From Nymphaea colorata (lineage: Eukaryota > Streptophyta > Magnoliopsida > Nymphaeales > Nymphaeaceae), in the NCBI RefSeq assembly GCF_008831285.2, contig NC_045151.1, forward strand, positions 7,827,682 through 7,891,681: 64,000 nucleotides of DNA. Reading direction: 5' to 3'. Shown piece after piece: positions 7,972 through 64,000 of this stretch. The translations under genes and the position numbers were made by a program. The notes below the pieces were generated by a model. That model was not told the DNA's origin. It did no database searches and saw nothing but the letters and a program-made list of their open reading frames with translations. The first letter of the stretch is position 1; every line of letters starts with the position of its first letter.

Positions 7972-8258
7972 CTCATCCATCTCCACCCGTGCTAGTAAAC
8001 CATCCTAAAAATACTAAGTCAAGGAGGGCAGCTAGTGGAACAATGGAAAGAAAAATAAAATAAAATAATAAAAACAACAAAAATCATTAATTAAGTGGAT
8101 TGTGCATCAATATCCATCCCACTGGCCTCTTTTAGCACCAGTCATATGTCACTATCTGTTATTGTTAGCAATTTGTTACCTACTAAACAATAAATGCTAT
8201 TATTTTCTACGTACCACGATAAGAATATAGCCAAAAACTAATTAAGTCTAGTTCATTT

Positions 8259-8730
8259 TGTAAGATCATTTGGTGGGCCAGCATATGTCTATGAGGAATT
8301 TCAGACATTATGGCTGTTTTAAGGTAAATATCCACTTAAGTGATTGTGTTTTGGGATATTACGTCATTTTAGATGGTATGGGGTAATTTTGAAATGTATA
8401 GATACTTGTACGCAATTACGGACTCTTTGATGGGTTGAATCCGTAATTGCCCTTAATATAAAATGGTAGTGGTCCTTGTGGTCGTGCAATGGTTTCTTGA
8501 AACGTTGGTTTCTAGGGTTGTCTCTTCCCCATCTGAGAGAGACCTCACGTGCGCCGCAAAGATCCTGGAAGATCCTACCGTGATCTACCGTCCAGTTCTT
8601 CAGATGGATTCAGGTACGCTTCAGCTACGGTTAAGTTTATTTTGCTTAATTTAATAATTTAGCATGAACATGATCCTGTTTAGGGTATATACGTTTGGTT
8701 TTGTATATGCATGAGGGAGAAATCCCAACA
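8259..8730 (+). repeat. 5' LTR of the copia element
   Basis: The LTR is 472 bp, begins TG and ends CA, and matches 13951-14421 with about 30 differences. It holds a TATA-like box at 8457-8463 and, downstream of it, a G-box CACGTG at 8546-8551. U3 would therefore be about 230 bp, with R and U5 the rest. Confidence 0.95.
8457..8463 (+). promoter_or_regulatory. Probable LTR TATA box
   Basis: TATAAAA lies within the 5' LTR about 200 bp from its start and is conserved at the same place in the 3' LTR (near 14148). This is the expected position of a U3 core promoter. Activity is inferred only. Confidence 0.6.
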
Positions 8731-8732
8731 AT

Positions 8733-8744
8733 TGGTATCAGAGC
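8733..8744 (+). other. Primer binding site (initiator Met tRNA)
   Basis: TGGTATCAGAGC begins two bases after the 5' LTR. It matches the usual copia primer site complementary to the 3' end of plant initiator methionine tRNA. Confidence 0.93.
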
Positions 8745-8859
8745 CTATGTTCATTGTTGAATCGTTGATTTTTGGATGAATTTTTGTGCGTTCTTCCCGT
8801 TCAGATGTTCCCTGATTCTTCGACTGCAAGTTTTTTCAAAAAAAAAAAAATTAGTATAG

Positions 8860-9530
8860 GGCATGCGACGGAAGGCGTCGGGCTTCCGTTGCAGCCATCT
8901 GAGGACTCATGAGGATCGAAGAAGGAGACGGATGGATCGGCGGGCGTCGGTCGCCGTTGGGCAACGGCGGGCCTCCGGCACATCCCTGCCTGCGGCCACC
9001 CACGTCGTTGGGTGGTCTGTTAGTGCCATCTGCGCCTCTGTCGCAACCGCAGAAACAGTCAAAAAGGGAAACAAGGAAGGCGAGGTCATGACTCATTCTT
9101 ATTGAAAGGTCAGGACGGCAGGGAGGGGCGACTATTTTCCCTCCGTCAAGCAGGCATCGGCCGGCCATTAGGCGACGGCCGGACCTCCACGTCCTGGCGG
9201 CACCCGCCGGCAGCCACCACGCTGTTGGGTGGCCTACTAGAGGCTTTCTAGCTGCCGTTTTCAGCGCCCAAAACCAGAAGGGGGCAGAAATCAAAAAAAG
9301 GGTAGAAAACAGACCGATTCCGGCCGTTTTTTCAGTGGGCAACGACCGGCCATCGCGGCGGGCGATGGCCGGCCGTCCTGGCAGCACCCGCCGGCGGCCA
9401 CCCACAGAGTTAGGTGGCCTGCCGGTGGATGACCACCGCCGGCCTGCGGTTCGGCAGGCGAGCGGGCGGGTCGAACCGGGTCGGGTCTTGACAGACTCGA
9501 TCCGGATCCATCAGTTTTTTTAAAAAAAAA
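8860..9530. repeat. GC-rich repeated module in the copia leader
   Basis: Between the primer site and gag lies a block far richer in GC than the rest of the element. It contains three related stretches, near 8950-9020, 9165-9240 and 9340-9425. Each has a GGCGACGGCCGG-like start, CCGGC(A/G)GCCACC, and a TTGGGTGGCCT or TTAGGTGGCCT end. Open frames exist on both strands but show no recognisable domain. It could be a captured and duplicated host fragment or an element-specific leader. Confidence 0.65.
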
Positions 9531-9544
9531 AATGCTGCTCGCTT

Positions 9545-9985
9545 CCACGCGCATTAAGTTTTTCGGACCGGGTCAGGTCCGATAGGACCCGACCCGTACC
9601 CATACGGTTTGTTTTGAAACAGAACCGGTTCATTAAGTTTAGAACTGATTCCGTTTGATTTAGAACCGGTTTGCACCTTTTCTGAACCGATTCAGACCGG
9701 TTCAGTTGTTTTCAGACCGATTCAACCCGATTCAGTACCGGTTCGGACATTTTAGAACCGATTCGGACCCTTTTCAGACCGATTCAGGGCTTTTCAGACC
9801 GGTTCATCCAGTTTTAGAACCGATACGGCCGATTTTTGATCGGTTCGTCCAATTTTTAACCGGTTCAGCCCTATTTAGGGCCTTGTGGGTGCTTTTGTTG
9901 TGGTTTAAGAACGATACAGGCCATTTTAAGGCCGATTCAGTGGTTTTTGACCCACTTAAACACGATTATGGTACCGGTTTATAAA
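9545..9985. repeat. ACCGGTTC / ACCGATTC motif array in the copia leader
   Basis: The words AACCGGTTC, ACCGATTC and close variants recur roughly every 15-35 bp, on both strands because AACCGGTT is palindromic. The spacers are rich in TTTT and CAG. The array sits between the GC-rich block and the gag remnant. An open frame (9706-9984) runs through it only because of the repeat. It may be a protein-binding or RNA-structure array; no function is shown. Confidence 0.75.
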
Positions 9986-10428
9986 ATTTTGGACTCTTTT
10001 GGGCCCATATCATTGAATCATTGGTCTTGGATTCAATGTAGAGATAATGTTGTATGTAAATTTTAATATATGTATCATGTATTGCATGTTATTAAAATTA
10101 TGGGTGTACTATAGATGAATACTTGGATTATGAATTTGATCTTTGGCCATGTCTGTTGTTTGAAATGAGTAAGTTTGTACTTTATGTGGCCAAAGTGACC
10201 TCTGTTGTACGAATTTGTCTGTTTTAAACATTAGATGATAGTATACTTAAACCATGCGGGTAATGATCAACCCAAAGGAGGATTGTTGCTTGGTCAGGTT
10301 TAAGTATACAGGGCAATGAATATGTGATAATTTTTCAGGTTTTCTTGTGAATAGTGAGTCAATCCAAAGATAGGCTCGTTGTTTGACAGGGTTAATTATC
10401 TATATTCATTGTTGACCAATAATACCAC

Positions 10429-10803
10429 TTGCAGTTAATATTTCAATCCAAAGATTGGATATTAACGTTGCATCGGTACCTTGTGATGGGATTTTGGGCC
10501 ATTATATTTAAATTCATTTATATTTGTTATTTCATCTTTGTACATGTTTTGATTGTGAGCATGTTTGGTATTTTTGTTCTTTGTACAGTGAGTTCTGCCT
10601 CTATGATACTTGCAAATTTGAGTACTATTCTTGAGTTAAATGATTCGATTTTTATAAGTAAGAAAAGAAAGATTGTTAAGGAAGTTGCAGTTAACCAATC
10701 ATCCGTTAAGAAACAGAATAAGCATAAGGAAGGTCGATCATGCTGCTTTTTTTATAACGGTGAAGGTCATATAAAGAAGGATTGTACTAAGTTTCACGCA
10801 TGA
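10429..10803 (+). pseudogene. Copia gag remnant with damaged zinc knuckle
   Basis: The last 20 residues of the 124-aa frame hold a CCHC-type knuckle (C-x2-C-x4-H-x4-C). The second cysteine is tyrosine (Y109), while C106, H114 and C119 remain. Basic residues precede it, as in copia nucleocapsid. The N-terminal part is hydrophobic and unlike a normal gag, and the usual long gag frame upstream is absent, so most of gag has been lost or scrambled. It would normally coat the element's RNA in virus-like particles; here it is surely non-functional. Confidence 0.7.
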
Positions 10804-10854
10804 CGTGAAAAGAAAGGTACACTTCTCACTTTGGTTTGTTTTGAGGTTAATTTA

Positions 10855-11465
10855 ACTTGAGTACCCAGAAACACTTGGTGGGTAGATTCAGGTGCTACTA
10901 CTCACATAAGTGTCTTTATCCAAGGTTGCCTAAATTGTCAAACACCAAATGATGCTGGAAGATTCATTTATGTGGGCGATGGCAAAAAGGCGAAAGTTGA
11001 AGCCATAGCATATTTTCAGTTATTGTTAAAGACTGGTTGTTATTTGAATTTGACAGAAACTTATGTGGTGCCGTCTTTTAGATGGAATTTGTTTTCTATT
11101 TCCTCATTGAACAAATTTGGTTATTATTGTTCATTTGGAGGAAGTAAATTTAAGTTGTTTCTGCACTCAAATTTGATAGTCATTGGTTCTTTATCTGGTA
11201 GCGATAACATTTATTTGCTTGATACGATTGCTTCATATCATGAAACCTTGCATGCTACATTTAGTGGAACTAAAAGAAAATTAGCCAATGAGAATTCTGC
11301 TATATTGTGGCATAGTCGCTTAGGACATATCTCTGAAAAGTGAATAAAAAGGCTTATGTCGAATGGAATTCTTGAGTCCCTTGATTTTGCAGACTTTAAT
11401 GTTTGTATTGAAAGTATAAAGGAAAAACGAACAAACATTAAGGGGTTATAAGTTTTATAATCCAA
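10855..11465 (+). pseudogene. Copia protease and GAG-pre-integrase remnant
   Basis: The aspartic protease signature D-S-G-A is encoded at 10885-10896, after a WWV-type lead. The frame from 10972 continues into a GAG-pre-integrase zinc region with LWHSRLGH (about 11305-11330). A stop follows at 11341-11343, then a short in-frame continuation to about 11450. The HHCC zinc region is only partly present. Immediately afterwards the sequence jumps to the region that normally follows integrase, so the catalytic core of integrase is missing. Confidence 0.85.
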
Positions 11466-12619
11466 CCCGTAAGTCTTTCTTTAAAACGGGAAATGCCCAT
11501 TTCTTTGAGGATATTGAGTTTGGGGGAGTTGATTAGGTTAAACATATTGTCTTTGAAGAGAGACGTGAGTCTACTCATACAGATGTTGAAATCAATAGTC
11601 AGGTCTTTGTTTCTGCCAATGTTCCATCAACATATTCAGAAGAAGACAATGATGTCGATCTCCTTACTGAAGAACAAACTCAACAACCTCAAGAAAATCA
11701 AGTAGAGGTGCCACTGAGGAGATCCACTAGAGAGAGGAGAAATACAATTTCAAATGATTTTGTCTATTTCCAAGAACATGATGTTGATATGGGCTTAATG
11801 GAAGATGATTCTATCAACTTCCAGCAAGCAATAAAGAGTTCTAAATCTTATAAGTGGATAGATGCCATGAATGAAGAAATAAAGTCCATGATGGACAATG
11901 ACGTATGAGATATTGTTCCCTTACCTGAAGGTGTGAAACCCATTGGTTGTAAATGGATATTTAAAACCAAGAGGGATTCATTAGGTAACATCGAAAGGTA
12001 TAAGGCACGTCTTGTCACAAAAGGCTTTACTCAAAAGGAAGGCATTGATTATACAGAGACTTTCTCTCCAGTTTCGTTGAAAGACTCTTTCAGGACTATA
12101 ATGGCACTTGTGGCTCATTTTGACTTAGAGCTGCATTAGATGGATGTAAAGATAACGTTTCTAAATGGAGACATTGATGAAACGATATATATGGTGCAAC
12201 CAGACAACTTTATTTTAGAAGATGCAAAGAAAATGGTCTGCAAACTTAAGAAATTCATCTATGGGTTAAAGCAAGCTTCCTGTCAGTGGTATTACAAATT
12301 TCATTAAATTATAGTTTCATTTGGTTTCGAGACTAATATGGTTAATGAATGAGTATACCAAAACTTTGGTGGGGCAAATTTATCTTTCTAGTTTTATATG
12401 TAGATTATATATTGTTGGCAAGTAATGATGTGGGCATATTGCATGAAACTAAGAAATTTTGTCAACAAAGTTTGACATTAAGGATCTTTGTTGTGCATCC
12501 TTTGTATTGGGGATCCAAATATTTTGAGATCGTTCTCGGGGTATTCTTGGATTATCACAAGAGGCTTACATTGATAAGGTGCTTCCGCGATATGGCATGA
12601 AGGATTCTAAACCAGGAGA
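11440..12619 (+). pseudogene. Copia post-integrase and reverse transcriptase remnant
   Basis: After the integrase gap the sequence gives the typical proline- and serine-rich linker and LRRSTRERR-like motif (about 11710-11740), then the reverse transcriptase start (KWIFKTKRD near 11950, RLVTKGFTQ near 12008). In-frame stops lie at 11906-11908 and 12137-12139, and another follows near 12304. The catalytic YVDD motif at 12397-12408 reads YVDY, so one metal-binding aspartate is lost. The frame then drifts until the nested MITE at 12620. The enzyme is dead. Confidence 0.9.
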
Positions 12620-12881
12620 CAATGTTGTAAAAAGCGTATCCTAAGCCGTATCGGTTTGGCTTTAAGATACGTTGTATCGTAAAATATCGTAACCGTATCG
12701 TTTTTTTTAATAAATCAGAAAAAATAGAAAAAAGTTCAAAAAATTCATAAAAATCAGTAAAAAACAAGAATAATATGTTTTTTTTATAAAAAACACATAG
12801 ATTTATAAGTCATAAGGTCCATAAGTCTGAGATACCATATCGTACGTATCGGTCTCGTATCGTACGTATCGTACAACACTA
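12620..12881. mobile_element. hAT-like MITE nested in the copia, 262 bp
   Basis: The left end is CAATGTTGTA and the right end is TACAACACTA; the inverted arms match at 8 of 10 positions. It is flanked by the exact 8-bp duplication CCAGGAGA (12612-12619 and 12882-12889). Subterminal DNA on both sides is full of GTATCG/CGATAC words, with CGTACGTATC repeated near the right end, and the centre is A-rich. It has no coding capacity. Its position inside the reverse transcriptase shows it arrived after the copia. Confidence 0.88.
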
Positions 12882-13556
12882 CCAGGAGATACTCCAGTTG
12901 CTAAAGGAGACAAGTTTAGTCTTAAACAGTGCCCTAAAAGTGAAATCAAATCTAAGGAAATGGAAATGATTCCCTATTCGTCTGTTGTGGGAAGCCTTAT
13001 GTATGTTCAGGTTTGTACTCGTCCGGATATTGCATTTATCGTTGGAATGTTAGGCAGATACTTAAGTGATCCTGGTATGGATCATTGTAAAGCAGCCAAA
13101 AGAGTTTTGAGGTACTTACAAAGAACAAAAGATTTTATGCTCACATACAGGAAGTCAGATCAGTTGGAGATCATTGGGTATTCAGATTCTGACTTTGTAG
13201 GGTGCCAAGACAGTAGCATAGCATGTTACGAGGCATCCAATCATGCTTTGTAATTGCTGAATTTTGTCACGGGGCTACGCATTATGAATAGTATAAAAAG
13301 ACCACTAAGGTTATTGTGTGACAATAATTCAGCAATCATGTACTCTAATAACAGCCGCAGTTTGTCAAAGTCGAAGTACATCGACATTAAGTTTTGGGCT
13401 GTTAAAGAGAGAATACAGAATGGTCAAGTGTCTTTAGAGCATATTGGGACAAACTCTATGATTGCGGATCTGCTTACTAAGGGTTTAACACATAAGGTCT
13501 TTCACGAACATGTTGTTCGTATGAGGGTGTTATCCTTGGATGATGTGTTGGTTTAG
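12882..13556 (+). pseudogene. Copia reverse transcriptase tail and RNase H remnant
   Basis: Reading resumes after the MITE with the motif order of the copia RT/RNase H junction: PYSSVVGSLMY, TRPDIAF, RVLRYL and IGYSDSDF (12960-13200). The next part is shortened: the stretch between the SDSDF motif and the LLCDNNSA motif (about 13310) is partly deleted and a stop lies at 13251-13253. The C-terminal IKFWAVKERI...ADLLTKGL block follows and ends at 13556, about 390 bp before the 3' LTR. Confidence 0.9.
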
Positions 13557-13939
13557 TGAGAATTTGTATTTTGTTTGCTCTTATGTATAGACACATATTC
13601 AGTTTTCTGCAGAATAAATTTTAAAGTTCTTTGGTTCCATTCTGTGTTTATGTTTTGATCTCCATAAGGTTTTAAAGTTGGACCAGTTGAGAATAGGCAT
13701 GTTGTAATCACATTACACGTAATTCTTATGTTATACATCCATATCAGATCTATGTCATTGGTTATGTTAACATTTGTGACCATTGAAGATTTAGCTAATT
13801 TTAATATAGCGAAAGCCGTTTTTGTTCTGTGTTGATATGATCAAGGACGAGATTGGTGAAAATGACGTTTAATAAGATAGCAGTTATGAGATCCTAAGGT
13901 TTTGTGTAATGTCTGAATGTATAAAGACATATTTGGCCC

Positions 13940-13949
13940 AAGTGGGAGA
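13940..13949 (+). other. Polypurine tract
   Basis: AAGTGGGAGA lies one base before the 3' LTR, the expected plus-strand priming site. Confidence 0.85.
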
Positions 13950-13950
13950 T

Positions 13951-14421
13951 TGTAAGATCATTTGGTGGGCCGGCATATGTCTATGAGGAATTTCAGACAT
14001 TATGGCTGTCTTAAGGTAAATATCCGCTTAAGTGATTGTGTTTTGGGATATTACGTCATTTTAGATTGTATGGGGTAATTTTGAAATGTACAGATACCTG
14101 TACGCAATTACGACTCTTTGATGGGTTGAATCCATAATTGCCCTTAATATAAAATGGTAGTGGTCCCTGGGGTCGTACAATGGTTACTTGAAACGTTGGT
14201 TTTTAAGATTGTCTCTTCTCCATCTGAGAGAGACCTCACGTGCGCCGCAAAGACCCTGAAAGATCCTACTGCGATCTACCGTCCAGTTCTTCAAATGGAT
14301 TCAGGTACGCTTCCACTACAGTTAAGTTTATTTTGTTTAATTCAATGATTTAGCATGAACATGATCCTGTTTAGGATATATATGTTTGGTTTTGTATATG
14401 CATGAAGGAGAAATCCCAACA
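13951..14421 (+). repeat. 3' LTR of the copia element
   Basis: The LTR is 471 bp and pairs with the 5' LTR. The differences are mostly transitions, as expected for methylated plant transposon DNA. The G-box CACGTG is kept at 14237-14242. It ends at the CATTT duplication. Confidence 0.95.
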
Positions 14422-14757
14422 CATTTAGGTTAGTTCTCCATGGCTGCCAGCCTGCCAATAACCCTTAAGGGCGAATAGACCGTCCACCCAATGCTGCTAT
14501 CCGCTTCTACTATGGCTGGGCTTAATCACAGTAGGAGACTTGGTGGCAACAACTGGAATGAAATATCATTTAATCGAGCCAGCTTTGGAAATGGCTGGAG
14601 CTTCACAAGAATTGTGCGCACCAAGGTTGAAGATCTTGATCAAGTTTGTCTGTGCGACTTTGGTTTTTAGATTTTCAGTGTGATTTTTTTTTTTTGGTGA
14701 AACTTGATAGTGAAATGTGACCCAAAAATTTTGTTTCCAAATAGTTCCTCGTAAAAG
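14422..14757. other. Host DNA between copia and hAT insertions
   Basis: About 336 bp with no gene that I can see. It is the only host sequence left between the two insertions and was probably part of the upstream region of the PIF gene. Confidence 0.6.
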
Positions 14758-14992: not shown

Positions 14993-17775
14993 ATGGCAGG
15001 CGACGGCGTCCGGCGATCCACGGCGACGTCTGGTGGTGTCCGACGGCCGCCGCCGGCGGTGACAGAGAGGTAAGTGGTTTTTATTTTGATTTTTTCCGAT
15101 AGTAGAACTTAGGTTTGTCGATTTGGAGTTTATTACAGTTTTGGATTTGTCGATTTGGGGGTTTTTTTCGTCGTTCTTCATCCTAATCTCTTCTTCTATG
15201 CCCTATGGACATTTTTTGATTTGGGGGTTTCTGACGATTTGGGGGTTTTTGCCGATTTGGGGGTTTCTGTCGATTTGGGGGTTTTTTCCGTCGTTCTTCA
15301 TCTTAATCTCTTCTTCTATGCCCTATGGACATTTTTTGATTTGGGGGTTTTTGCCGATTTGGGGGTTTTTGTCGATTTGGGGGTTTCTTGTTGGTTGTGC
15401 TACTGTTTTTGTTGCTTTTGCCGATTTGAGTGTGTTTGTTGTATACTTGTATTGTTTTATTCCTTTACATTTACGTTCATTATATGTTTTTTGCATCTTT
15501 TTTTTATTTTTAATGTAGCAGAGGGAACAATTGGAATGGAGTCTCTATATGTACTCCTACAAGTTCAAGTCATGCATCTGGTTCACTTTCACAAGAGCAA
15601 GAAGACCGACCACCATTATGGTCATACGTGCAAATGAAAGGGAAACTTCCTGGCAGTGGTGGAAATGTTAATTTTGTTTGTTCTTTCTGTGGGATAGAGT
15701 TCATTGGATCATATACAAGAGTGAAAGCGCATCTGTTAAAAATCAGTAGACAAGGAATTCAAGGATGTAAGAAAATCAGTAAGGAGAGTTTGAATCAGTT
15801 GAAGAAAGAACAAGAAGCCTTTGAAAAAAAGAAAGGCACGACATCATCTGATTATATTGACATTGCTTCAATTATAAATGATGATGTTAAGGATAGTCTA
15901 AAGAAAAGAAAAGTTTACGTGAATCAAAAATCAATTGAGGAGTCATTCAGTTTACAAGGACGGCGAGAATTAGATCTAAAAGTGGCACAATTTTTTTATG
16001 CTAACTGCATACCATTTAATGTAGCTAGAAGTCCATATTGGAGAGATTTAGTTACATGTATTGCAAATAGTAACTTGTCTGGGTATGTTCCTCCTAGTTC
16101 TGAACGGCTTCGCACTGTACTACTAGAACAACAAAAGACTCGAGTGAACAAACTGTTAGAGTATCAACTCACAACTTGGGAGCAACATGGAGTTTCTATT
16201 GTTTCTGATGGCTGGACAGATTTGCAAAGGTGCCCTCTTATTAATTTCATTGCAACTTCTGCAGATGGACCAATTTTCTTAAAAGCAGTATATGCATTTG
16301 GTGAATACAAAAGTGCTGAATATTTGAAAGGATTGTTTATAGAAGTAATTGAAGAAGTGGGGAAAGAAAATGTTGTTCAAATAATTACAGACAATGCACC
16401 TGTATGCAGAGCAGCTGGAATTGCGGTAGAACAAGATTACCCTCATATCTTTTGGACTCCTTGTGCAGTCCATAGCTTAAATTTGGCTTTAAAGAGTACA
16501 TGCAATCCACCAAGTGAAGAGCAAGATCCTCATGCTTATGAATTATGTTCATGGATTCAAGACTTGGAAAAAGATGTTAGGCGCATCAGAAATTTCATAG
16601 TAAATCATCAACATGCACTTCACATTTATAACAAGCATTCTGATCTGAAATTGCTAAGAGTTGCAGAGACACGTTTTGCATCTTTAATTGTTATGATCAA
16701 AAGGATAAAAAGGGTTAAAAGTGCATTGATCAGTATGGTGACTGATGATGAATGAAATTTCTATCGTGCTGATGATGATGACAAAGCTCAGGCAATCAAA
16801 AAATTGATTCTTGAAGACAAGTGGTGGGATAAAATCTTTTATTTTCTTGCATTCACAGAGCCGATTTGGGAGATGTTGAGAGTTCTTGATTGTGATAATG
16901 CAATGTTGCACTGTGTTTATGAGATGTGGGATATGATTGAAAAAATTCAAGAGGTCATTTTTAGGCACGAGAAAAAAAATTTTGCACTTGAAGATTCAGC
17001 ATTTTTTTATCATGCGCATAAAATTTTGATTGCAAGATGGGATAAAAGTAGCAATCCTCTTCAATGCATGGCACATTCATTGAATCCTAAATATTATGGT
17101 AAGAAGTGGCTTGCAGCAGGTATTGGAAGAACCCCACCACATAAGGATTCACAATTATAAAAAAACAGGGTGGCATGTGTTAATAAAATCTTTATTGATG
17201 AACATCAAAATCAAAGAGCAAATGAAGAGTTTGCAAGGTTTTCTACTGGGATTGGAGAAGATGCAAGTGCAACTGTAGATAAAATGAATATCCACCTCTA
17301 GCTTGGTGGATTAAACATGGACATTTTTATCCTACTCTTCAATACCTTGCTTTGAGATTGTTAGTTCAACCTGCTACATCTTCATGCTGTGAGAGAAATT
17401 GGAGTACATATTCACAAATCCACACCATAAAACGAAATAATCTCACAAGCAAACGTGCAGAAGATCTGGTTTATGTGCATTCTAACCTTCGACTTCTATC
17501 AAGAATGAAAAAAGAATATAGGTAAATAAGTATATTATTTATTCATTTAGATGTTTCTCCTCTTATTACCTAATATCATAATAATTACAATTTGTTTTGT
17601 CTTGTAGGGAAGGAGAAACCAAAATTGGGATGTGAATGTTGAGGACTTCAACTTAGAAGAAGACAATGAACTTGAAGCTGTTAATTCAAGTTTTGAAAAA
17701 CCTTCTATTCCAGCATCCTCTATTGTGCAAGAAGAACAAGAAGAAGAAAACGATTTGTCATTTGAGCATTCATAA
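14993..17775 (+). pseudogene. hAT transposase (BED finger, DUF659, hAT dimer), broken
   Basis: Exon 1 runs 14993-15069 with donor GTAAGT. Exon 2 starts at 15519 and joins it in frame to the long frame through 15628-16752. Near the start is a BED-type zinc finger (FVCSFCG, then a His and Cys about 25 residues on). The catalytic region shows VSDGWTD, ITDNAPVCRAAG and WTPCAVHSLNL, typical of plant hAT transposases. Lesions: an in-frame TGA at 16753-16755, TAA at 17158-17160, a frameshift near 17285 before the AWWIKHG and ATSSCCERNWS dimerisation part, and a second shift after an apparent intron (about 17524-17608). The gene once cut and pasted the element; it is now inactive. Confidence 0.9.
15151..15390 (+). 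repeat. G-run minisatellite in the hAT intron
   Basis: CGATTTGGGGGTTTTTG-like units of about 18 bp recur eight times. They are arranged in two blocks because a segment of about 120 bp (CGTCGTTCTTCAT through the G-runs) is itself duplicated. The array lies wholly inside intron 1 of the transposase gene. Confidence 0.9.
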
Positions 17776-18045
17776 TGTGTAGAATGATGATAAACAATGT
17801 TTTGTGATTCACAATCTTTTGTTTGTGATGGACAAGGTGTCAAGGACAATGTTTTGTGATGGACAAGGACAATGTTTTGTTTGAGATTATATTAGTGAAC
17901 TATTTTTCTTTTTTTTTAATTTTATTTATTTTTTAGAATATTTAATTTAGCCGTGTCAGCGTATCCAAAAATTTTGAAAATTACCGTACCCGTACCCGCA
18001 TCCCCATATCCGCACCCGTATCACATTCGCATTCGTGTGACATAG

Positions 18046-19191
18046 CGTAAAAGGCTTGCGCCTGTTGACTTGTGCAAGCAACCTCACGAATGGAATAGTG
18101 TAATTTCGTCTAAAAGGGTTCAGCTACTCAAACTTATCCCTCGCTATTTTCTTTTTTGGACATTGAGGATCCTTTCGCTCTGAAGATAGATTTTCACTTT
18201 CTGTGAGGCTTCCCCCCTCATTAATTCTGTGCAAGAGTCTGTGTTTCAGAAGGACGTGAATCACGAATTAACCACGGTTAACACTTGGTTGAGTTGTGCG
18301 TGTACTCGCGGGTTCTAATATTTCTTCTGTTCGAAGGTGCGGTGACAAACCCATGATTGATATCCTCCATACTCGGTGCCGAGACGGCGGAGAGTGCAGC
18401 GAGACATCACTGTACCAGGTCTGCCTCTATAGTTTAATACCACTGCAGCTTCGGCCCCCCTCACAAAATAATGATGGTACCACGAGAACAATGCCTTACG
18501 GGTAGGTTGGTGTGTAGTCTTCTTCTCCTTTGTTTTCATGACGATGGTTCTGAGTGGTTCGAAGTTTCGCAGAAAACAGTGCAGGGATTGCATGGTTTGT
18601 GATGTTATCTTTGTTTTGAACTGTTCTGGGTTATGAAAAGGGTTCGTGAATTATTAGTTTCTTGAGAGTTACGATCAATTTTCCGTTTTCTTTTGGTATG
18701 CAAGATTGTGGTGGACACCTTTCTGCTTTGGTTATCAGCTGCCTGTTACTTCATGCGTTACTTATGTTGATCTTTAACTTTCGATATGTCTTTTTGGGTT
18801 ATTGGTGTGACGTTTTGCTAATTAACTATCCATATCAGGTTGGTTTCGGCTGGAATATCTTTACCCATTTCTCCCTTCTTGTTTTCCTTCTGATAGTAAA
18901 AATGATCCTTTTTCGAGAGAAATTTTTTCCTGTTCTGAAGTCTGTTGTGCCATTGGACATCTTAATGAGGATCTGCCGGCCGTTGCTGTTTTCCTATTTT
19001 TCTCGCTTCTTTTTCTTCCTCCTCAATTCAGTTAAAATTTGTATTGGCCATGATCATTGCTGTTCTTCTAAATTTTGTTTCGGTAGGTTCTGCTCTGATT
19101 TCTTGTCTCTGTTCTAGTGACTGTTCTATTCTGTTTGGATTTCGAAATTAAGTACGTCTGCTTAAAGTACCTTTATGGAATATCATTTCAG
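18046..19191 (+). promoter_or_regulatory. Upstream region and probable 5' UTR intron of the PIF gene
   Basis: This covers the remaining upstream DNA between the hAT element and the leader exon. Possible untranslated exon ends are at about 18418 (CCAG followed by GTCTGC) and 18501 (CGG followed by GTAGGT). The T-rich DNA from 18510 to 19191 looks like an intron ending TTTCAG at 19186-19191. PIF genes often have leader introns, but the transcription start is not visible. I see no clear TATA box. Confidence 0.4.
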
Positions 19192-19324
19192 TGAGAAGGA
19201 GGAGTCTGTTGTGAAGGGATGAATAAATGCCTTCAGGACGGGGTTATCGAGTAGACAAGAAAATAATTACCTGGTTTTTCTCAACATCCGACGAGTGATA
19301 GGATTTCTGGACAAGAACAGAAAC
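19192..19324 (+). promoter_or_regulatory. 5' leader exon with two uORFs
   Basis: The exon is entered at the TTTCAG acceptor and leads to the start codon at 19325. It contains two overlapping upstream reading frames: ATG 19219 to TAG 19252-19254 (11 codons) and ATG 19227 to TGA 19296-19298 (23 codons). The second stops 26 bases before the main start. Such uORFs often lower translation of the main frame; that effect here is inferred. Confidence 0.5.
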
Positions 19325-20588
19325 ATGGGGTAAGTGCCGAGTCAAATTTGTCTCCTTTTATATAGTTTAGCTTTTTTGGCTGCTTTCCTTAAAACAGATT
19401 CCTGTATCAAAATTTTAATATGCGCTATCAATTTCAAATTTGCGTGTTCGTGATCCGGACACTGTTGTTGCATAACAGACAGCAGCAAGAGCTTGTGGAA
19501 TTGCTTTGGAGAAATGGTCACGTTGTCCAGCAGGCCCAAAATCACAAGAAACAGTTGGGTGGTTGTAAAGAATCGCAGTATAATATGAGAACAGAGGAGA
19601 AGAACGAGCGTGCAAGCCTGGAGAAGAATGAAATTGGATGGACCCACCAAAGTTTCAATCCGGGGGGTGAAACTGCACCGTGGCTACGTTCCTTTCCTGA
19701 TGATCCGTTTGATGAACTGTGCTCAAATTTTTTTGACGAGATACCAAGTGTTGTTGCAGCTGAGCCTGCGAGGACAAGAAACGAAGCCCCAGGAAGGGAG
19801 AAAACAGTAAAACAATGTATTTCTGACGCTGTAACCAAGGTTCAAGATTGCAAAGCTGGTAACTTGCCCAAGAACATGGATGAATCAAAGTTCGTTTTTT
19901 CATCATTATCCCATTCAAGTTATGAGGGCAACTCTTCTGGAAACCATGTTGCACCTGTGATGCTGCCCCCTAAAGGACATCTAACTGTTGACACAAAGCC
20001 ATCAACATTGCATCAGGATGCTGCAAAGCTTGTGAATTTCTCACATTTTTCTCTGTCCGCATTGATTTCTATGGCTAATACCGACCCAACTTGTGAAGCT
20101 CTTGGATACAAGCCGAAGAATCCAGTTGCGAAGTCTATAGGCGACCCATTAGTCACTGCAAATGGATCAAACAATTATGCGATAGATCAGAATCAAATGC
20201 AGTTGGATCCACCTTTCCTCTCTACTCAATCTGCTGATAATGTTTTATCTTTGGAAAATGACGTTCCAAGAGGGCTATTAACCACTGGTGACAAAGGACA
20301 ACAACTTGCAGGCGATGTGCTTGAAGGAACCTCATCTTCAGGTGCATCTGGCTGCAGTACTGGGAAGTTTGGCGAGCAAACTACTGGCAAGAATAGCCAG
20401 AAAAGAAAGGCCAGGGATGTCGAAGAGTCTGACTGCCGTAGTGAGGTTAGTGACTCACAGATTTCGATGACTTAATCCTTGAGAAATGGATCTGAGATTT
20501 GCAATTGGATGGATGAAATATTTACTGTTCTCAAAAATATCCTTCAGTATAGCTTTCCTATTTCACAAATATTTATTTCTAGTGTCCT

Positions 20589-20621
<33 letters not shown>

Positions 20622-22727
20622 ATCTCTTTCTCTGTTTTCTCTTCTTCGAATCATTTTTCTTTCACGCCCTCTAATCCTAAACGGGCCTGCATTTTTTTAG
20701 CAGGAGATTCTGAAATTACTTCACTTTTTCTACAGATATTTTATTTAGTGATTTATTTTGTCACTGGTATGAATATATCCTGTGAAAAGAGAGATAGGGC
20801 TTCTTTTCATCCTGATGGAGATCTTTACACCAAATTAATATACAGAACACTTTGCCTCTTGCTACTTGTATCCATCCTCTCGTCTCTTCAGCTTTTGTAA
20901 GAAAGAAGAAACAGAAGTTTTGTTCCCTGGAAGACATTGCTGTGTTTTTTTTGCTTGGTGTCCTTTGTAAGTATCAGTTTGCCAAAAGAACAGAAAATGG
21001 TTGGTTTAGTCTAGCTCAGCAGGAAAATTTCTTTCAGAGACTGACACACAAGCCTTCAATGCTTAAATTTACTTCTTTTTACATTTTTTTTTTCTAATGA
21101 CCCTTTCCTGTTCCAGCATTTCTATCTTTCCAGTTTATTCAAAGCTTGTATCCTTCTCTTCTCTCTATCTATGTGGTTCTTCTCTTTTTCTTTCCTCTGT
21201 TTTTCCCTTTTTATTTCATGTGTGCGTGTCTATCTTTGGCATTGGCCCTGGATTTGTTTACCTTTTTCTCTTTATTATGATAGGAAACAAAAATAAGTAT
21301 TTATTTAGTTGTTTATTATAAGTATTTTTTACCTTTTTATTTGTTCTGCTTTCTCAAGTTTCTCTTGTTAGCCGCATGTTCCATTTAAATTAAGAATCCT
21401 TTGCATTAACCACTTCCTCAATCCTTAGTCCTTCTAGGAGAAGGATAAGACAGTTTAACTGACAGCGTATCCACAACTCTTGGCCTATGTGGTTATCTTC
21501 CTTTTTGCTTTTTTTTTTTTTCTCTTTGAGATACAGTAATTGCTTATGTAATAAACATACAGGGTATCGGATACGAATCTGTTGAAGCTAAGCGACCATT
21601 TTCAAAATCTGCTTCATCTCGCAGAAGTCGAGCTGCTGAAGTCCATAATCTGTCAGAGAGGGTAAGCCATAGCAATGCTATCTCAAGCCTGTATTTAGGT
21701 TGTTGTGTTGCTTATGCATTGTCTCTATACAGAGACGTCGAGATCGAATCAATGAGAAGATGAAAGCATTGCAAGAGCTTATACCCCATTGTAACAAGGT
21801 GAAATTTTCTTTCCTTTCACCTATATCCTAGTTAGTGGAATTTGATTTTTTTCTTCTCATTGTTTTAGATATTGTCACATATTGCTTGGAATGTTTAGTT
21901 CTTTCTGTGAGTGTTAGGGATGTTATATAATAACATATATAGTGATTTCCTTTTTCTTATTTTAATGCATATCTTGGATTAGAGTTGTTGTAACCTTCTT
22001 GTTTTGCTAATTGCTTAAAGAGTTTCTGGTCCGTTTCTTATTATTCAGTCAGACAAGGCTTCAATGTTGGATGAGGCGATTGAGTACTTAAAATCTCTTC
22101 AGTTGCAAGTGCAGGCATGTGACTGTATCCAAATTTTTTTTGCTGGTACTCTCTTTGTAATTAGTTTGTTAAGATTTGTCGTTTTCTTTTTTCAGATAAT
22201 GTGGATGGGTGGAGGAATGACACCATATATATTTCCTGGTATTCAACACTATTTGTCACCATTGGCTGTGGCTCATGCATCTCGGCCTTCCTTACATGGT
22301 TCCATGCCGTTGCCAGAGATCCCACTGGTGGACCAATCTAGAACCACTGTCGCTGGTTCAGATCAGTTAACACAAAGGTCACCCATCCAATCTTCTGATA
22401 TGAACATCCAGGAATATTACGCCCGCCAACTTAGTATTCAGCAAATGCACATAGCATCACAGGTTAAGTCATGGCGGCTTTTTCTATCATTTACTTGACA
22501 GCATCAATGGTCAGCTGTTTCTATCTAACTCATTGTGTTTTTTGTACCTTCAAAAGATGATGCCGCAGAATCAGAGAACCCTTGAAACTCTGGGCAGTAG
22601 CAGTGTCATTCGTGATTCTGGGACCCGATGTGAAAATTTCCAGTTTTGCAAATCTGGTAATAGTGATATTTCTTCCTCATTACTATGTACTATGAAAGCC
22701 GAAGCGGGTGACAATCCTTCATATTGA
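19325..22727 (+). CDS. PIF-type bHLH transcription factor (phytochrome interacting factor)
   Basis: Coding exons as read: 19325-19329, 19479-20445, 21563-21661, 21733-21798, 22049-22114, 22196-22462, 22557-22727, about 546 aa. Residues 6-15 ([10 protein letters not shown]) are the APB motif that binds active phytochrome B, here followed by His where Gln is usual. The [16 protein letters not shown] block (about 75-90) is also PIF-like. The bHLH spans about residues 343-400: the basic region [13 protein letters not shown] keeps the His-Glu-Arg triad for G-box DNA, helix 1 is [13 protein letters not shown], helix 2 is [23 protein letters not shown] follows, as in PIF3/4/5-type proteins. Family role: nuclear repressors of light responses, degraded after phytochrome binding. 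All introns are GT-AG except 22115-22195 (GC-AG). The tiny start exon is inferred from frame and splice sites; retention of that intron would offer ATG 19420 instead. The exact paralogue is not resolved. Confidence 0.9.
20588..20630. repeat. (TC)n microsatellite in a PIF intron
   Basis: A long CT run lies in the intron after coding exon 2, about 140 bp past its donor. Confidence 0.9.
22115..22195 (+). other. GC-AG intron of 81 nt in the bHLH region
   Basis: The exon ends CAAGTGCAG at 22114, the intron begins GCATGT and ends TTTTTTCAG at 22195, and the next codon begins ATAATGTGG. Only this junction gives the [11 protein letters not shown] sequence expected of PIF proteins. The intron is 27 codons long and has no in-frame stop, so retaining it would insert 27 mostly hydrophobic residues directly after helix 2. 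Confidence 0.8.
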
Positions 22728-23307
22728 TCTTCAGACCAACCTACTACGGCTGTCATGAAGTACATGTGATGCACTTGGTCTGTCTTGATAAGGCATCAAT
22801 ATTATTGCATCATTTTGTATTTCCCTCACAAAAACTAAAAATGCAGTTAAATTTTCTTGCATAAATCTTGGCGACCAACCACTCTGGTTTTCTAACATGG
22901 ATGTATATAGTGATTTGGGTGCTTATGTTTCATGCGCTGGTTTTTTGGCCAAAACTATTCAAATGGATTTTACCTTTCACTCATGGCTTACCCCTTGCAA
23001 TTATTTGAAAGTAACCATGACAATCTCTTGGTTTAGCAGATTAAAAAGATTCTTCGGCTTGCAAGCGTTCAGATATTTGTATTTCATGTTTAATGAATGC
23101 ACTTCAGCCACCGGCGAACCTGCAGCAGATAACAGCTAATGATTGCTGCCAGCTCAACTAATATGGTCCCCAGAGAAACAATGAGTTGGTAATTTGTACG
23201 TCAGCTGAAACCTTCAATTAAATCCTTTTGGAATATAGTTGGAGCTGTAAACGTGGTTGTATTTATACTAGTCTCTGACATACCATATGTTGCATTGAAT
23301 GTTGAGC
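22728..23307 (+). other. PIF 3' flank / probable 3' UTR
   Basis: DNA following the TGA at 22725-22727. Short frames occur, for example 22897-23139, without homology that I recognise. The first strong AATAAA I see is at 23437-23442, beyond the inverted copy. The poly(A) site itself cannot be placed. Confidence 0.4.
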
Positions 23308-23404
23308 CAGTCACATGCCTGCACTTGCAACTGAAGAGATTTTAAGTACTCAATCGCCTCATCCAACATTGAAGCCTTGTCTGACTGAATAATAAGAAAC
23401 GGAC
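23308..23404 (-). repeat. Perfect inverted copy of the PIF bHLH helix-2 exon
   Basis: These 97 bases are the exact reverse complement of 22029-22125. The match covers 20 bases of the preceding intron with its CAG acceptor, the whole 66-bp exon (SDKASMLDE...QLQVQ), and 11 bases of the following intron with its GC donor. Intron edges show a DNA-level copy, not a retrocopy. Full identity implies a recent origin or continuing gene conversion. The spacer is 1182 bp. No terminal repeats or target duplication mark a transposon. Confidence 0.97.
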
Positions 23405-23424
23405 TAAGTAAATGTAGCTGTACT

Positions 23425-23690
23425 GGTTCATGAAATAATAAATGATGTAATATTGCCTTTCATCTCTTGTTGTTCTGCCTGCAGTCCTCAAGCTTTATTT
23501 CTGCATTTGGGAAAATGTATAAAGCAATGTTGTTTAGACGGTGTTTCCATTATTTCTGCAGAAAATGGGTGCTTCATAAAATAATAAATGATGTAATATT
23601 TTCATCTCATGGTGCTATTCTATCATGAGAGATATATAAAGCAATGTTGGTTAAATGATGTGTTTTCAAATATTTCAGCAAAAAAGAGTT
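23425..23690. repeat. Tandem duplication, period about 146 bp
   Basis: Two copies begin at GGTTCATGAAATAATAAATG (23425) and GCTTCATAAAATAATAAATG (23571). They share AAATGATGTAATATT, CATCTC, TATAAAGCAATGTTG and a TTTC(T/A)GCA end. The duplication adjoins the inverted PIF exon copy, so this 3' flank has been rearranged more than once. Confidence 0.85.
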
Positions 23691-24154
23691 TCTGGTGTAT
23701 GGAAGAAAATGCTGCATGAATATTTTCATGTCAAACATGCTTTATACAGCAGTTTTTATCTGGGACTCACAATTTTGGCAATTACAGTTGTGGAGTTCAG
23801 GAGTCATCTTAAGCAATGTCCTTTTTCCCTTTTGGGTAAAACTAGTCCAAGTTTCAAAAGTCCTGTTCTAGTGGAAGAATTTTTACTAATGGATCATATG
23901 GTTTGGCTGTGTGAAGATGCAAAAAGAGAGATTTGAGAAAGAGGAATTAGCTCTGGCTAGCTATTGGTCCTGAAGGAGAGGATATTGGTCCTGCAAGTTG
24001 ATCAGCCAGATGCCGGATGTTACTGAAAGGTTAAAATTTAAAATGTGTTTCTAAATAATGATAAATTAACTTTAACATTGGTGACGGTTTATAGTGCGAT
24101 GATGATTTATGGTGGTTTAATGATGATTGGTGGTCCATTAAGTGATAACTTTTT
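23691..24154. other. Intergenic DNA, no supported gene
   Basis: Nothing recognisable apart from short shadow frames. Confidence 0.5.
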
Positions 24155-24425
24155 AAAGTCAAAACATCGAGCAGCCATTTGACATCATTGACTTTTCCGT
24201 ATATGTAAGGCGATTCAATTCCGCTAAATGCTGGATTTTGTGGGATAGATAAAATTTTAAAAATTTGTCGTTATAAGAAAAAAATTGAAGTTAAAACCGT
24301 CGAGCAACCATCCCACATCTAACATCGTTGACTTTTTCCATATATGTAGAACAATTCAATCCTTCTAGATGCTGGATTTTGTCGGATAGACAAAATTTTA
24401 AAATTTGTCAATTAAAAAAAAATCA
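24155..24425. repeat. Tandem duplication, period about 135 bp
   Basis: Two diverged units (24155-24291 and 24292-24425) share the order ATCGAGCA(A/G)CCAT, TTGACTTTT, ATATGTA, ATTCAAT, TGCTGGATTTTGT and AAAATTTTAAAA. A weaker echo (CATCCGGCATCGGATAG, TATATATGTTGGA) follows to about 24610. Confidence 0.8.
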
Positions 24426-27027
24426 GTACATTGTATTAGTGATGGTTTGTGGTGCAACGACAGTTGTCAGAAGCTTTAACGATAATTAGTGATTCTTTTA
24501 GCAATTTTTCTTTTATTTTAGTTATCTGGTAACATCCGGCATCGGATAGCATTGAGACTTTTCTATATATATGTTGGACATTGGATGTTGTCATGTTGCT
24601 AGAATTTAAAAGGTTTATATCATATAGCAACAGTTTTTACTCGAACAACAGTTTATGAAAGCTTTAGAAATTATTTGCATAGAACAATGGTAAACTGGAC
24701 AACCATTTACATGGAATTGCTGTTAATGGTCAAGACTGAACAACATGATTGTTTTAATGTAATTGAACTTGAACAGACTTGGAAAGGAAAAGGATGAGCA
24801 CTCCCAAGTTTCTGCGTCTTTTTACCGCCTTATCATTTTGAAATTTTCCGAAGGCGACATGAGTGCAAGGTGCCTGTGATTGTAAACCCCAACTGTCGTA
24901 GTTTTCTCGAGTAATGTGTAGGCCTAGGCATTCGCAGGCTTGAACCATGACAAGCCTAGTGCCTGGCAGGGCAAAAGCGTTTGCCGGCAGCCTAACACAT
25001 ATGTATGTACGAGAGAGAGAAAGAGAGCTTCATGTGCCGTGTCCAGTGGGCACTGGTCAATTCTTTCATGTGATATAATTCCCCACTTGATAGTCTAAAC
25101 AAATGCAGGTCAAGCTTAATAAAAGCATAATTTTATAGAATATTTGCAAATTCCTTGGATAAGCTCGATCTCTCTCCCCTTCTTTCTCTCTATTTTCTAC
25201 GTACTAGGATCATCACTGTAAGGGAAGCAATAAGAGAAAAGAAGAGAAAATCAGGTATGCGCACACCACTTAAACTAAAGCATTAATGCCGCGTAAAAGA
25301 ACAAGAGGCCCACGCGTCGCGAACTTCACTTCAAGTGTAAATGCATCTTATATTATTATCTCAAGGCTAGGCATCATCCCTCAGGGAAACAATAATACGA
25401 CTGTCATGCAGGTCTATCCCAATGGGTGAAAGACACCCACGGGCAGCAGCTAGCCATTCAATTATTGTTTCACATGCATGCCTTCTGCGGCTCGACCATG
25501 AATGTCTCATCATGTTGTCACGTACTTGTGTCGCATGTGTTCTCTGTAACATTAATGCAGTTTTCTGTTAATTTGCTTAAAAATTAAAGCAGATTTATGA
25601 AATATATTGTGTTTTAACGTTTCATGAATCAATCACAATCTTTCCAACAGATTTATCAAATACCTCCATAAGCTACACATGACTAGTGCTTCTATAACTT
25701 AGGTACTATGTTATTAGTGTCTCCATCCAGCAAATCCCCCAAAACATAATCCATTCTCATCACCCTGCGTAATTATTTCACACTAGGCACACGTGCTTCT
25801 CTTCAATTAATACAGTTTCTTTTCCATTGACGGAGGGCAGATTGAAGCCCTCACCAAGAAAATTGGCTTCTTCTCCTATTCTTTGAGCTATTTATTCCTG
25901 ATAGTGAGACATCATATCATCTGCTACACATTTGAGTTGTTGGCGGGATAGTTGGTATCATTGACGAGAGAGAGAGAGAAAGAGAGACAGTCCAGTCCAT
26001 ATATAAACACGAAAGCAGTGACGACCATTCATGTGGACTGCTGCAGCGGAACGTGCTTTTTTTTTTTTATTTTTAAATAATTTTTTCTAGTTTTACTGAA
26101 GGTGGTTGATGTCAGAGCCGGCTCCAGTTGAACATGCCTACCATTGAAGTCCTGATTTCTCATTAGGCTGTAGCTACGTGCCTCTTTTGGATTTTCAGAT
26201 AATTAGAATATTGTCGGTGGAAATTGGACGTTCTTCATTAATGTATTGAAGACTAATTTCAGATAAGGCAAGTTGGCGATCCTTTACAAAAGCAAACCAG
26301 TTGCCGGCTTTTCTATGATGGGACGACTAAAACAGTGTCCAACGGCTTTACAAGGCCGATATCAGCGAGACAAGTTCTCTTTCGTTTATATCATCTTTTG
26401 ATAAAAGAGAAAAAGCCGAGGTACAAGGAAGCTGCGTGGTGTGGGCAATTGCCCACACCAGCCCACTTACGGTATCTAATAGGCATTTCATTATTTACAT
26501 TTAACATAATTTACAACATAAATTTCTTAGACGGAAATTTTTTGGCTCCGTCACTGAAGAGAAAAGAATACCTCGTTTTGTGTTTGGAAGTTTAATTTTG
26601 AAAAGAAACAAAAATTAAAAAGTTATATTTGGATAGTAGAGAAACGAAATGACATGGAAGAAACTCAACACTTTTTTCCTTTCCACATTCTTGTGTCCTT
26701 TCCTTTCCCTCCGTTCAAATATAAAGTGCAGTTAACTTGTTTAAAATCATGCTTCTCTTCATGATCATTTTATTCTAACAAGGTTTTGTTCATTGCGAGT
26801 CACTGATTTTGTGTCCTAACTTTTCTTATTTTACATAAAATATGACGCGAATGCCATTTTTGTTATTTATGAGATAAACAATGTAAATCACATCCATTAA
26901 AATTTTCTAGTTAAATGGTCTTGAGATGGGGAACACTATTCATGCGCACACACAGACACATACACACACACACACCTGTACTCATCTACAAGTTTTGGTT
27001 CATAAAGTTTTGGTTCATATAGTTTTG
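24426..27027. other. Intergenic DNA, no supported gene
   Basis: The stretch contains GA-rich microsatellites (about 25010-25027, 25966-25987) and a CA-rich stretch at about 26944-26977. I find no gene with a recognisable domain. Confidence 0.5.
26437..26460. repeat. 24-bp perfect palindrome
   Basis: The half-site TGGTGTGGGCAA is followed directly by its reverse complement. The following text (CCAGCCCACTTA, later GGCTCCGTCACTG) resembles a widespread plant repeat tail, so it may be part of a decayed transposon. A weaker echo, CTACACCAGCCCACATA, lies at 28744-28760. Confidence 0.85.
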
Positions 27028-27480
27028 GAGTAAATATGATTGTCTCGATCATATCTTGGAAAATCAGGACATAGTTTGCTCATTTTATAGACATGGCAAA
27101 ACATTTTTTATGTTTAAAGGGCATGATTAGAACATTATCTTTTTAAAAATAAATCATATTTGAATGTTACATGCTTGACATGTGTATGACTTCAATGATA
27201 TAACTTTATAACCTTACAAGTGTAGGGGACTCATCAGAATTATATAAAAATATGAGTAAATATGATTGTCTTGATCATATCTTGGAAAATCAGTAGGACA
27301 TACTTTGCTCATTTTTTAGACATGGCAAAACATTTTTTATGTTTAAAAGGCATGATTAGAACGTTATTTTTTAAAAATAAATTATATTTGAATGTTATAA
27401 GCTTGACATATGTATGACTTCAATGATATAACTTTATAACCTTACAAGTATAGGGGACTCATCAGAATTATATATATATA
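27028..27480. repeat. Tandem duplication, period 226 bp
   Basis: Two near-identical copies start GAGTAAATATGATTGTC at 27028 and 27254. Both end GGGGACTCATCAGAATTATA. They differ at only a few sites, so the duplication is recent. Confidence 0.95.
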
Positions 27481-27569
27481 TATATTCAATTTCACTCTAA
27501 GACTGTTGGAAAAGGATTGAAACGCCAATGGCGTTTTGATATTTTTTTTTCGCACACATAGACAATCTA

Positions 27570-56350: not shown

Positions 56351-57683
56351 CAAATTTTTTCAATCAGTCGCTAAAGGCAATTCCAAAATGTATGCGAGGA
56401 ATTTCACACAAATGATTGTAAAAGTGCTCAATTTCAAACTCAAATCTCAATTCAGGTTTGAATCATGAATTTAACCCATAGCACAAATCCCAATGCAGAA
56501 TTATGAGTCCAAATCACATTCTAGTGTACAAAACTAGATTCAAATTAGGGTTTGCAACCCAAATCCATTTACAATTATCATTTCGAATCTAAATATGGAT
56601 TACAAATCTAAAACTAGATCCAATGGAAATCCAACACATCATGCGCGACCCACATCGAGGGTCCACATAGCCTGTGTGGCTGAGGCTCACCCAAAGGTGG
56701 CCCCAAACCTAGTAGGCTTACTCAAACTTAAACCCATTGAGCCCAATCAAGACATGTCAAACTAGTTAATCAATCTGATCAAGGACCAAAATATTCCTCG
56801 ACTAAACCCTAAATAGCTTTGACTAAGCTCAGTTGAAGCACAATTCAAATTGAACTTAGCAAAAACATAATTCAATATTATCTAAGTGTCGAAATCATCA
56901 AAATTTGTAGAATCAGTCGAAGTTAGAGAATGAATTGGACGTTGACCATGGTCAAGCCGTCTAGTCTATTCAATTTTAGGAAAGGATTTTTAGGAAAAAA
57001 TTGTCCTTCTCAATCAAGCTCAATTTATAGACCCTAATTTAAGGTTTTGAACAAATCAATTATGCATTTGAACATGTAAACCGTACGAGTCAAATATACA
57101 ATTGTACAATCTCAATCAGGGTTTTTCTTCAATCCAACTTTGGATGAAAATGTTCTTTACAATTCAATTTAACACCATGAATTTAAAATTGAATTGAATC
57201 ACTGAATTTATAGATAGGAAAGTCTATAATTCAATGCAATTTAAATTTAGGTCACTAGGTCTAATAGACCCAAGTCAAACTTGAACACACCCAAGAGAGT
57301 GTATTTGAAGTCAATGTCAAATGCTTTTCTCATCAAAGTTTGAATTATAATTTGAAACTATGTTTTAAAACCCAAAGTTTTAAATCAAAATTACAATTGG
57401 GCTTGGTCAAAGTCATGTTGGACTTGACCTAGCCAAAACCCACTTAGCTCATGGGTGTGGGCTAGGTGAGCCCATTCTTGAGATAAAAAATAATAGTCTT
57501 TCTTGCCCCCCCCCCCCCCTTCTAGATTTGTTAAGCTAAGGTACTTCATTGGACTCTTGCTTAGGATTTCTAGTACAAGTAAAAGCATCTCTATTCCATA
57601 ATTTTCAGTAAGAAGACTCTATTCTTCTAGCCTTGATAAGCTCGAATCCAAAATTGGATTCTTGCATATGATTTCTTGATTAA
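56351..57683. other. AT-rich DNA before the satellite, no supported gene
   Basis: Rich in CAAATC / AATTTGA words; a 14-base C run lies at 57506-57519. I find no frame with a recognisable domain. Confidence 0.5.
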
Positions 57684-63600: not shown

Positions 63601-64000
63601 ATAAGAAAAGAGAAGCTCCAAACACAATGGCGGACCATAAGGTAGGGCAATTCTAGGTTGTTCTTCATTTATTTTGCTTCTTACTATTTATTTTTAAGTC
63701 CAATATCTATGGGAGGGTTTCATTTTCATTCGTATTCATAGCTGAGAATAATATCCAACGAGGATGAGCTATGATCAAATGTACATTTTAATGCCTTCTT
63801 CATGCATGAATCAAATTTTCTAAAGCAAAACCCATGAATCTATCGTTTAAAAGGGTGCCAAGGCCATGCATGTATCAAAAATAGCTTGCCAAAACCTATT
63901 TTCGACTTCCCATCATGAGAGGGTTCCACAATGAGAAAGTGAGAGAGTGACTTATATTTGCTGTAATATATAATATAACTGTCTATTAGGGACAGATGTA
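57684..64000. repeat. Satellite array, unit about 885 bp, runs off the right edge
   Basis: Head-to-tail units are anchored on AGCTCCAAACAC at 57701, 58380, 59265, 60110, 60957, 61842, 62728 and 63614. The spacings are 679, 885, 845, 847, 885, 886 and 886 bp. Adjacent units look about 95-99% identical. Units have no long open frames. Each contains a poly-A run inside TTTAAAAAAAAAACC, the stem GATAAGAG-GT-CTCTTATC, and an AATACATGCGTAAAAATGCG stretch. The last unit is cut by the window, so the full array length is unknown. Whether it is pericentromeric, subtelomeric or a local array cannot be told. Confidence 0.97.
58716..58923. repeat. 208-bp block present in inner satellite units, absent in the edge unit
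   Basis: In unit 2 the text GAGAGAGTG is followed by this block and then TTTGCATGATAAGAGG. In unit 1 GAGAGAGTG (ending 58036) joins TTTGCGTGATAAGAGG directly. The block has no inverted ends or flanking duplication, so it does not look like a transposon insertion. A deletion in the edge unit is the simpler reading. Confidence 0.85.

Follow-up and report, generated by a model that had tools for sequence, protein, structure and literature searches.

A perfect inverted copy of the helix-2 exon in the 3' flank of a PIF-like bHLH gene of Nymphaea colorata is probably a recent templated repair insertion

The 3' flank of a PIF-like bHLH gene of Nymphaea colorata carries a perfect inverted copy, 97 bp long, of the gene's own helix-2 exon and of both adjoining intron edges, which we read as a recent insertion templated during the repair of a break (probability of roughly 75%). 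The copy lies in a window (the whole stretch of 64,000 nucleotides analyzed here) on contig C14 of an assembly comprising 407.8 Mb in 783 contigs. Positions 23308 to 23404 (minus strand) form the perfect reverse complement of positions 22029 to 22125 (plus strand) over 97 of 97 bases, and the identity stops at both ends (Table 1). The original prediction had claimed such an exact reverse complement in the PIF 3' flank, made up of the helix-2 exon (22049 to 22114) and both intron edges, with a CAG acceptor and a GC donor; this was confirmed, the intron edges measuring 20 and 11 nt, and the inverted copy is real. The two arms are spaced 1182 nt apart, and by their coordinates the copy starts at the 581st base past the stop codon of the gene and ends 677 nt beyond it. 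This pair was the sole inverted exact match of at least 40 nt in positions 1 to 57000 of the window, and 30 sequences of 57.6 kb drawn from a first-order Markov model had longest inverted exact matches of 16 to 20 nt; on these two results, a chance origin of the pair is excluded. In a repeat search the pair grew to 107 nt (96% identity), since on one side 6 of the 10 adjoining bases match as well.

Table 1. Positions of the PIF-like gene, the two arms and the flanks of the copy within the window
Feature	Position	Strand	Description	Basis or remark
PIF-like bHLH gene	19480..22727	+	exons 19480-20445, 21563-21661, 21733-21798, 22049-22114, 22196-22462, 22557-22727 (stop)	splice-site reading
PIF-like helix-2 exon	22049..22114	+	66 nt, 22 residues, phase 0/0, CAG acceptor, GC donor	frame stays open if exon skipped
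Source arm	22029..22125	+	last 20 nt of the preceding intron, the 66-nt exon, first 11 nt of the following intron (GC donor)	exact match and splice context
Inverted copy	23308..23404	-	97 bp, 100% identical to source arm	only other 100% place found in assembly
Possible 3' UTR or spacer ahead of copy	22728..23307	+		22730-23307: one place in assembly (itself)
Flank past copy	23405..23720	+	first perfect AATAAA at 23437; diverged tandem duplication	23405-24050 matched only itself

The exon ends of the PIF-like gene were taken from splice-site reading, not from transcripts, with six coding exons resolved downstream of the first coding exon. The joined six-exon translation is open through to the stop and was matched by the Pfam HLH model (E 2.8e-14), indicating a bHLH domain, and no PIF-specific model was among the Pfam matches of this translation. 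In a search of solved structures, the best match of the protein was MYC2 (7.1e-08). We take the gene to be a putative PIF with likeness to PIF4/5-type proteins, an assignment made from characteristic motifs.

Other repeats and mobile-element remains were also observed in the window. Upstream of the PIF-like gene, the remains of a hAT-type transposase occupy 15514 to 17522, with matches to DUF659 (1.5e-44) and Dimer_Tnp_hAT (5.7e-15) in two of the three frames scanned. A Copia-type element at 8258 to 14425 has direct repeats (8258 to 8733 and 13950 to 14425) that are 93.5% identical, between which Pol_BBD and RVT_2 matches were found, again in two of three frames scanned. Tandem duplications are present at 27028 to 27481 (229 bp, 93%) and 15148 to 15388 (121 bp, 95.9%). 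Moreover, a tandem array at 57670 to 64000, which reaches the window end, consists of units that are mostly 97 to 99% alike (the first, 91 to 95%) at spacings of mostly 845 to 886 bp (one of 679 bp); a tandem repeat finder run at 57 to 64 kb with a longest period of 500 misses this array.

The content of the copy points to the kind of template that was used. Because intron sequence is retained on both sides of the exon within the copy, the template was genomic DNA and not mRNA, and an mRNA retrocopy is ruled out by the same intron edges of 20 and 11 nt. A templated insertion is further indicated by the complete identity (97/97) to a genomic source only 1.2 kb away. A double-strand break about 580 bp beyond the PIF stop would have been mended with 97 bp of new DNA, templated in reverse orientation by the helix-2 exon approximately 1.2 kb upstream. 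By a fold-back route, the 3' end on the left side of the break may have folded back onto its own strand close to 22126, been extended by copying from 22125 back to 22029 and, once released, been ligated to the right-hand end; joining of the polymerase-theta or NHEJ type would be compatible as well, and replication template switching would leave a scar of identical appearance. The strand geometry of the pair is that expected from fold-back copying. The break and the enzymes that acted on it are inferred, as are the age of the copy and any function it has.

The junctions of the copy were also inspected. No target-site duplication of 4 to 11 nt directly abuts the copy on either flank, the nearest flank repeat being the 5-mer AATGT, which lies 5 nt away from the copy in the left flank and 6 nt away in the right, and no terminal repeats were seen at the copy ends on inspection by eye. 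On these grounds, and given that no third 100% place for the copied stretch was found in the 407.8-Mb assembly, a transposon or MITE insertion was rejected. At the left junction, 6 of the 10 outer bases match the source flank (P of ~0.028 relative to random local pairs, before any correction for the two junctions), which would lend weak support to fold-back copying, and at the right junction 2 of 10 do. A patchwork filler built from TAAGTA, which stands just to the right of the copy and also inside it, was likewise rejected; the motif carries no evidence value, since it occurs in 19000 to 26000 at six plus-strand places (including 23343, the one within the copy) and at one minus-strand place, which lies in the source. 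In addition, a diverged, older tandem duplication lies shortly past the copy (23424 to 23565 versus 23570 to 23685) and bears an AATAAA in each unit (23437 and 23583); examination of 23424 to 23685 found no connection to the inverted copy.

Insertions of a similar kind have been described in other organisms. In the available passages of one study, repaired breaks of Arabidopsis carry templated insertions, and a figure legend on filler DNA at T-DNA junctions codes both forward and reverse-complement fillers (PMC10923293). In yeast, fold-back inversions of 2 to ~150 bp, mostly of <14 bp, and a 41-nt loop are given in excerpts of another study (PMC11724301). Like filler DNA and fold-back inversions, the present copy is short, exact, locally templated, reversed and devoid of an abutting target-site duplication, whereas in comparison with most of the yeast events as excerpted it is longer (97 bp) and has a longer loop (1182 nt versus 41 nt).

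Results of the assembly search, which skips simple repeats and very common words, revealed four places matching 22000 to 22150, namely, both copies on C14 (100%), a weaker PIF-like relative on C1 (76%) and another on C12 (86%). An empty site was sought with 22730 to 23307 and 23405 to 24050, and each matched itself alone. The C1 relative (C1:41840178-41840306, 76%) is an incomplete PIF-like copy that still contains intron sequence and whose bHLH region is interrupted by a stop. BLAST of positions 17001 to 27000 of the window aligned this relative over 21564 to 22268 at 81.6%, the remaining matches being to the inverted copy and, in a distinct inverted alignment at 73%, to 17846 to 18026. When twelve 200-bp pieces of 22201 to 24050 were compared with it, the first piece took the gene match to 22268, and the remaining pieces scored 36 to 59 versus 31 to 54 for shuffled sequences (one shuffle each), with no empty site readable. 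No second place was found for the flanks, and the C1 relative shows no clear match 3' of the gene, so the assembly offers no empty site against which to read junction microhomology. A protein search of the assembly returned 29 matches with E values of up to 0.001, many resembling other bHLH genes; helix-2-containing pieces among them lie on C12, C3, C10, C4 and C8, in addition to the inverted copy itself. Exact-pattern scans of viral_contigs and genome_contigs gave 0 matches and a distant plasmid search gave none, these virus, prokaryote and plasmid collections being uninformative on plant relatives.

The frequency of such copies was estimated from 23 stretches (230 kb) of other DNA of the Nymphaea colorata genome, comprising 20 stretches of 10 kb each, placed at round positions along C1, C12 and C14, together with neighborhood stretches of 15, 10 and 5 kb on C1, C12 and C14, each self-compared by BLAST. 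Inverted pairs of at least 40 nt at ≥90% identity were absent from this 230-kb sample, and nine direct local pairs of at least 40 nt at ≥95% were present (for instance, one of 50 bp at 100% and one of 106 bp at 99%), a number of which may belong to transposons. The 230 kb held no comparable inverted copy and so give no sign that events of this kind are usual in this genome; the sample, which is small and drawn from three contigs, indicates that inverted copies of this type are not very common on those contigs. Regarding age, 0 differences in 97 bp correspond under neutrality to a 95% upper bound that depends on the rate of change per site per year: ~2.2 million years at 7e-9, 6.2 million years at 2.5e-9 and 15 million years at 1e-9. 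The exon is likely constrained, and the real age bound is therefore looser than these neutral figures.

Any effect of the copy through RNA would require transcripts of the gene to extend as far as 23308 to 23404. The stop codon ends at 22727, and the original prediction had pointed to the AATAAA at 23437, past the copy, as a sign of such read-through. This hexamer is indeed the first perfect one downstream of the stop, but the argument built on it is weak, because AAUAAA is present in just 10% of Arabidopsis and rice transcripts, according to the available part of a review (PMC7457121), and because hexamers with one mismatch to AATAAA are present from 22834 onward, i.e., ahead of the copy.

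Several other explanations were weighed against a templated repair insertion. The copy may be an assembly artefact, produced by a misplaced read or a gap fill of about read length, considering that a perfect 97 bp is close to short-read length and that scaffold gaps exist in the assembly (one 100-N run in a sampled stretch); we regard this as very unlikely, given that the window is without any N, that the 230 kb of other stretches held no similar inverted copy and that the arms are 1182 nt apart, unlike the adjacent palindromes that fold-back read artefacts normally yield. Moreover, the array at 57.6 to 64 kb was resolved by the assembly even though its units are mostly 97 to 99% alike, which suggests that the assembly was made from long reads. 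The remaining explanations concern RNA, and a templated insertion, which speaks to the source of the copy and not to its effect, is compatible with them and does not exclude them; unless it is co-transcribed with the gene, the copy probably has no effect on fitness. A working self-hairpin, in which PIF transcripts cross 23404 and the duplex of copy and exon is diced to siRNAs that damp the gene and possibly its C12 relative, as in an early MIRNA-like locus, is unlikely in our view. Its geometry, as originally predicted, was borne out in silico: RNAfold paired 97/97 positions in the 1376-nt stretch 22029 to 23404 and 66/66 in the spliced stretch from the exon at 22049 to 23404, and the latter folded at -389.4 kcal/mol versus -279.6 kcal/mol when cut ahead of the copy, which makes it 97 nt shorter; the folded RNAs are partial transcripts whose 3' end lies exactly at the copy. 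The C12 relative may be a secondary target, as 6 of the 46 exon 21-mers match it with a single mismatch and 15 of the 46 do so when up to two are allowed, and a 3-kb control stretch gave no exon 21-mer match under six mismatches; for the C1 relative, 0/46 exon 21-mers and 5/77 21-mers of the whole 97 bp match with ≤2 mismatches. The arms are self-complementary and derive from a protein-coding gene, as in a young MIRNA/siRNA locus, and the prior claim that inverted duplications of parent genes can give rise to new microRNAs agrees with the passages available from PMC1790633, in which they are documented as a recognized start of young MIRNA/siRNA loci. MIR163-type loci share with the present one a self-complementary copy of protein-coding sequence and the potential to fold back, whereas here the copy lies in the parent gene's own 3' flank, includes one exon and is at most a putative source of a transcript and small RNAs. 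No Rfam family attains its gathering score in the window. Against a working hairpin, transcription as far as 23308 to 23404 is a prediction, and the perfection of the arms needs no selection for a hairpin, since the recent origin of a repair scar suffices. Overall, the earlier interpretation is partly supported.

Least probable among the explanations weighed is an effect on splicing, which the original prediction raised last: by base-pairing, the copy would mask the acceptor and the GC donor, and the 66-nt exon would be skipped to give an in-frame PIF without helix 2. The copy spans both splice sites of this exon, whose length of 66 nt and phase of 0/0 leave the exon-less frame open to the normal stop; such skipping would again depend on predicted transcription past 23404. 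The copy is transcribed ~1.2 kb after the exon, and with this delay co-transcriptional splicing may already be complete before the copy is synthesized, which counts against skipping. Exon skipping is also minor in plants, accounting for 8% of plant alternative splicing in the consulted part of a review. In-frame skipping of the helix-2 exon would be the most specific testable consequence of the copy, more specific than dicing. The predicted skipped product is, like Arabidopsis PIF6-beta, a PIF without part of the helix-loop-helix, although here the missing part would be helix 2, the frame would be kept and the form is a predicted one; the PIF6-beta passages available do not tie that form to an inverted repeat. 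Both RNA effects can be joined in a broader scheme, which we consider a long shot, whereby one recent repair event gave the PIF gene a cis-encoded antisense copy of its own dimerization exon, so that long-3'-end transcripts would either lose helix 2 by skipping or be diced, those with a short 3' end would be normal, and the choice of poly(A) site would switch between full-length and helix-2-less or silenced forms. In a literature search, no title among the matches listed named a cis-antisense exon in a PIF gene, which is not proof of absence.

A templated insertion at a repaired break thus remains the best reading, and the simplest account is that the inverted copy is a repair scar of an already known kind. 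The locus is also a clean example of a possible first step in the inverted-duplication model, namely, a perfect fold-back beside a gene before drift has set in. If the copy is silent, it would be a tidy plant case of a templated repair scar. If it is diced, the parent gene could be silenced, and perhaps the C12 relative too. If it is expressed, the locus would offer a direct test of the effect of a newborn hairpin on its parent, whether on splicing, through dicing or none at all.
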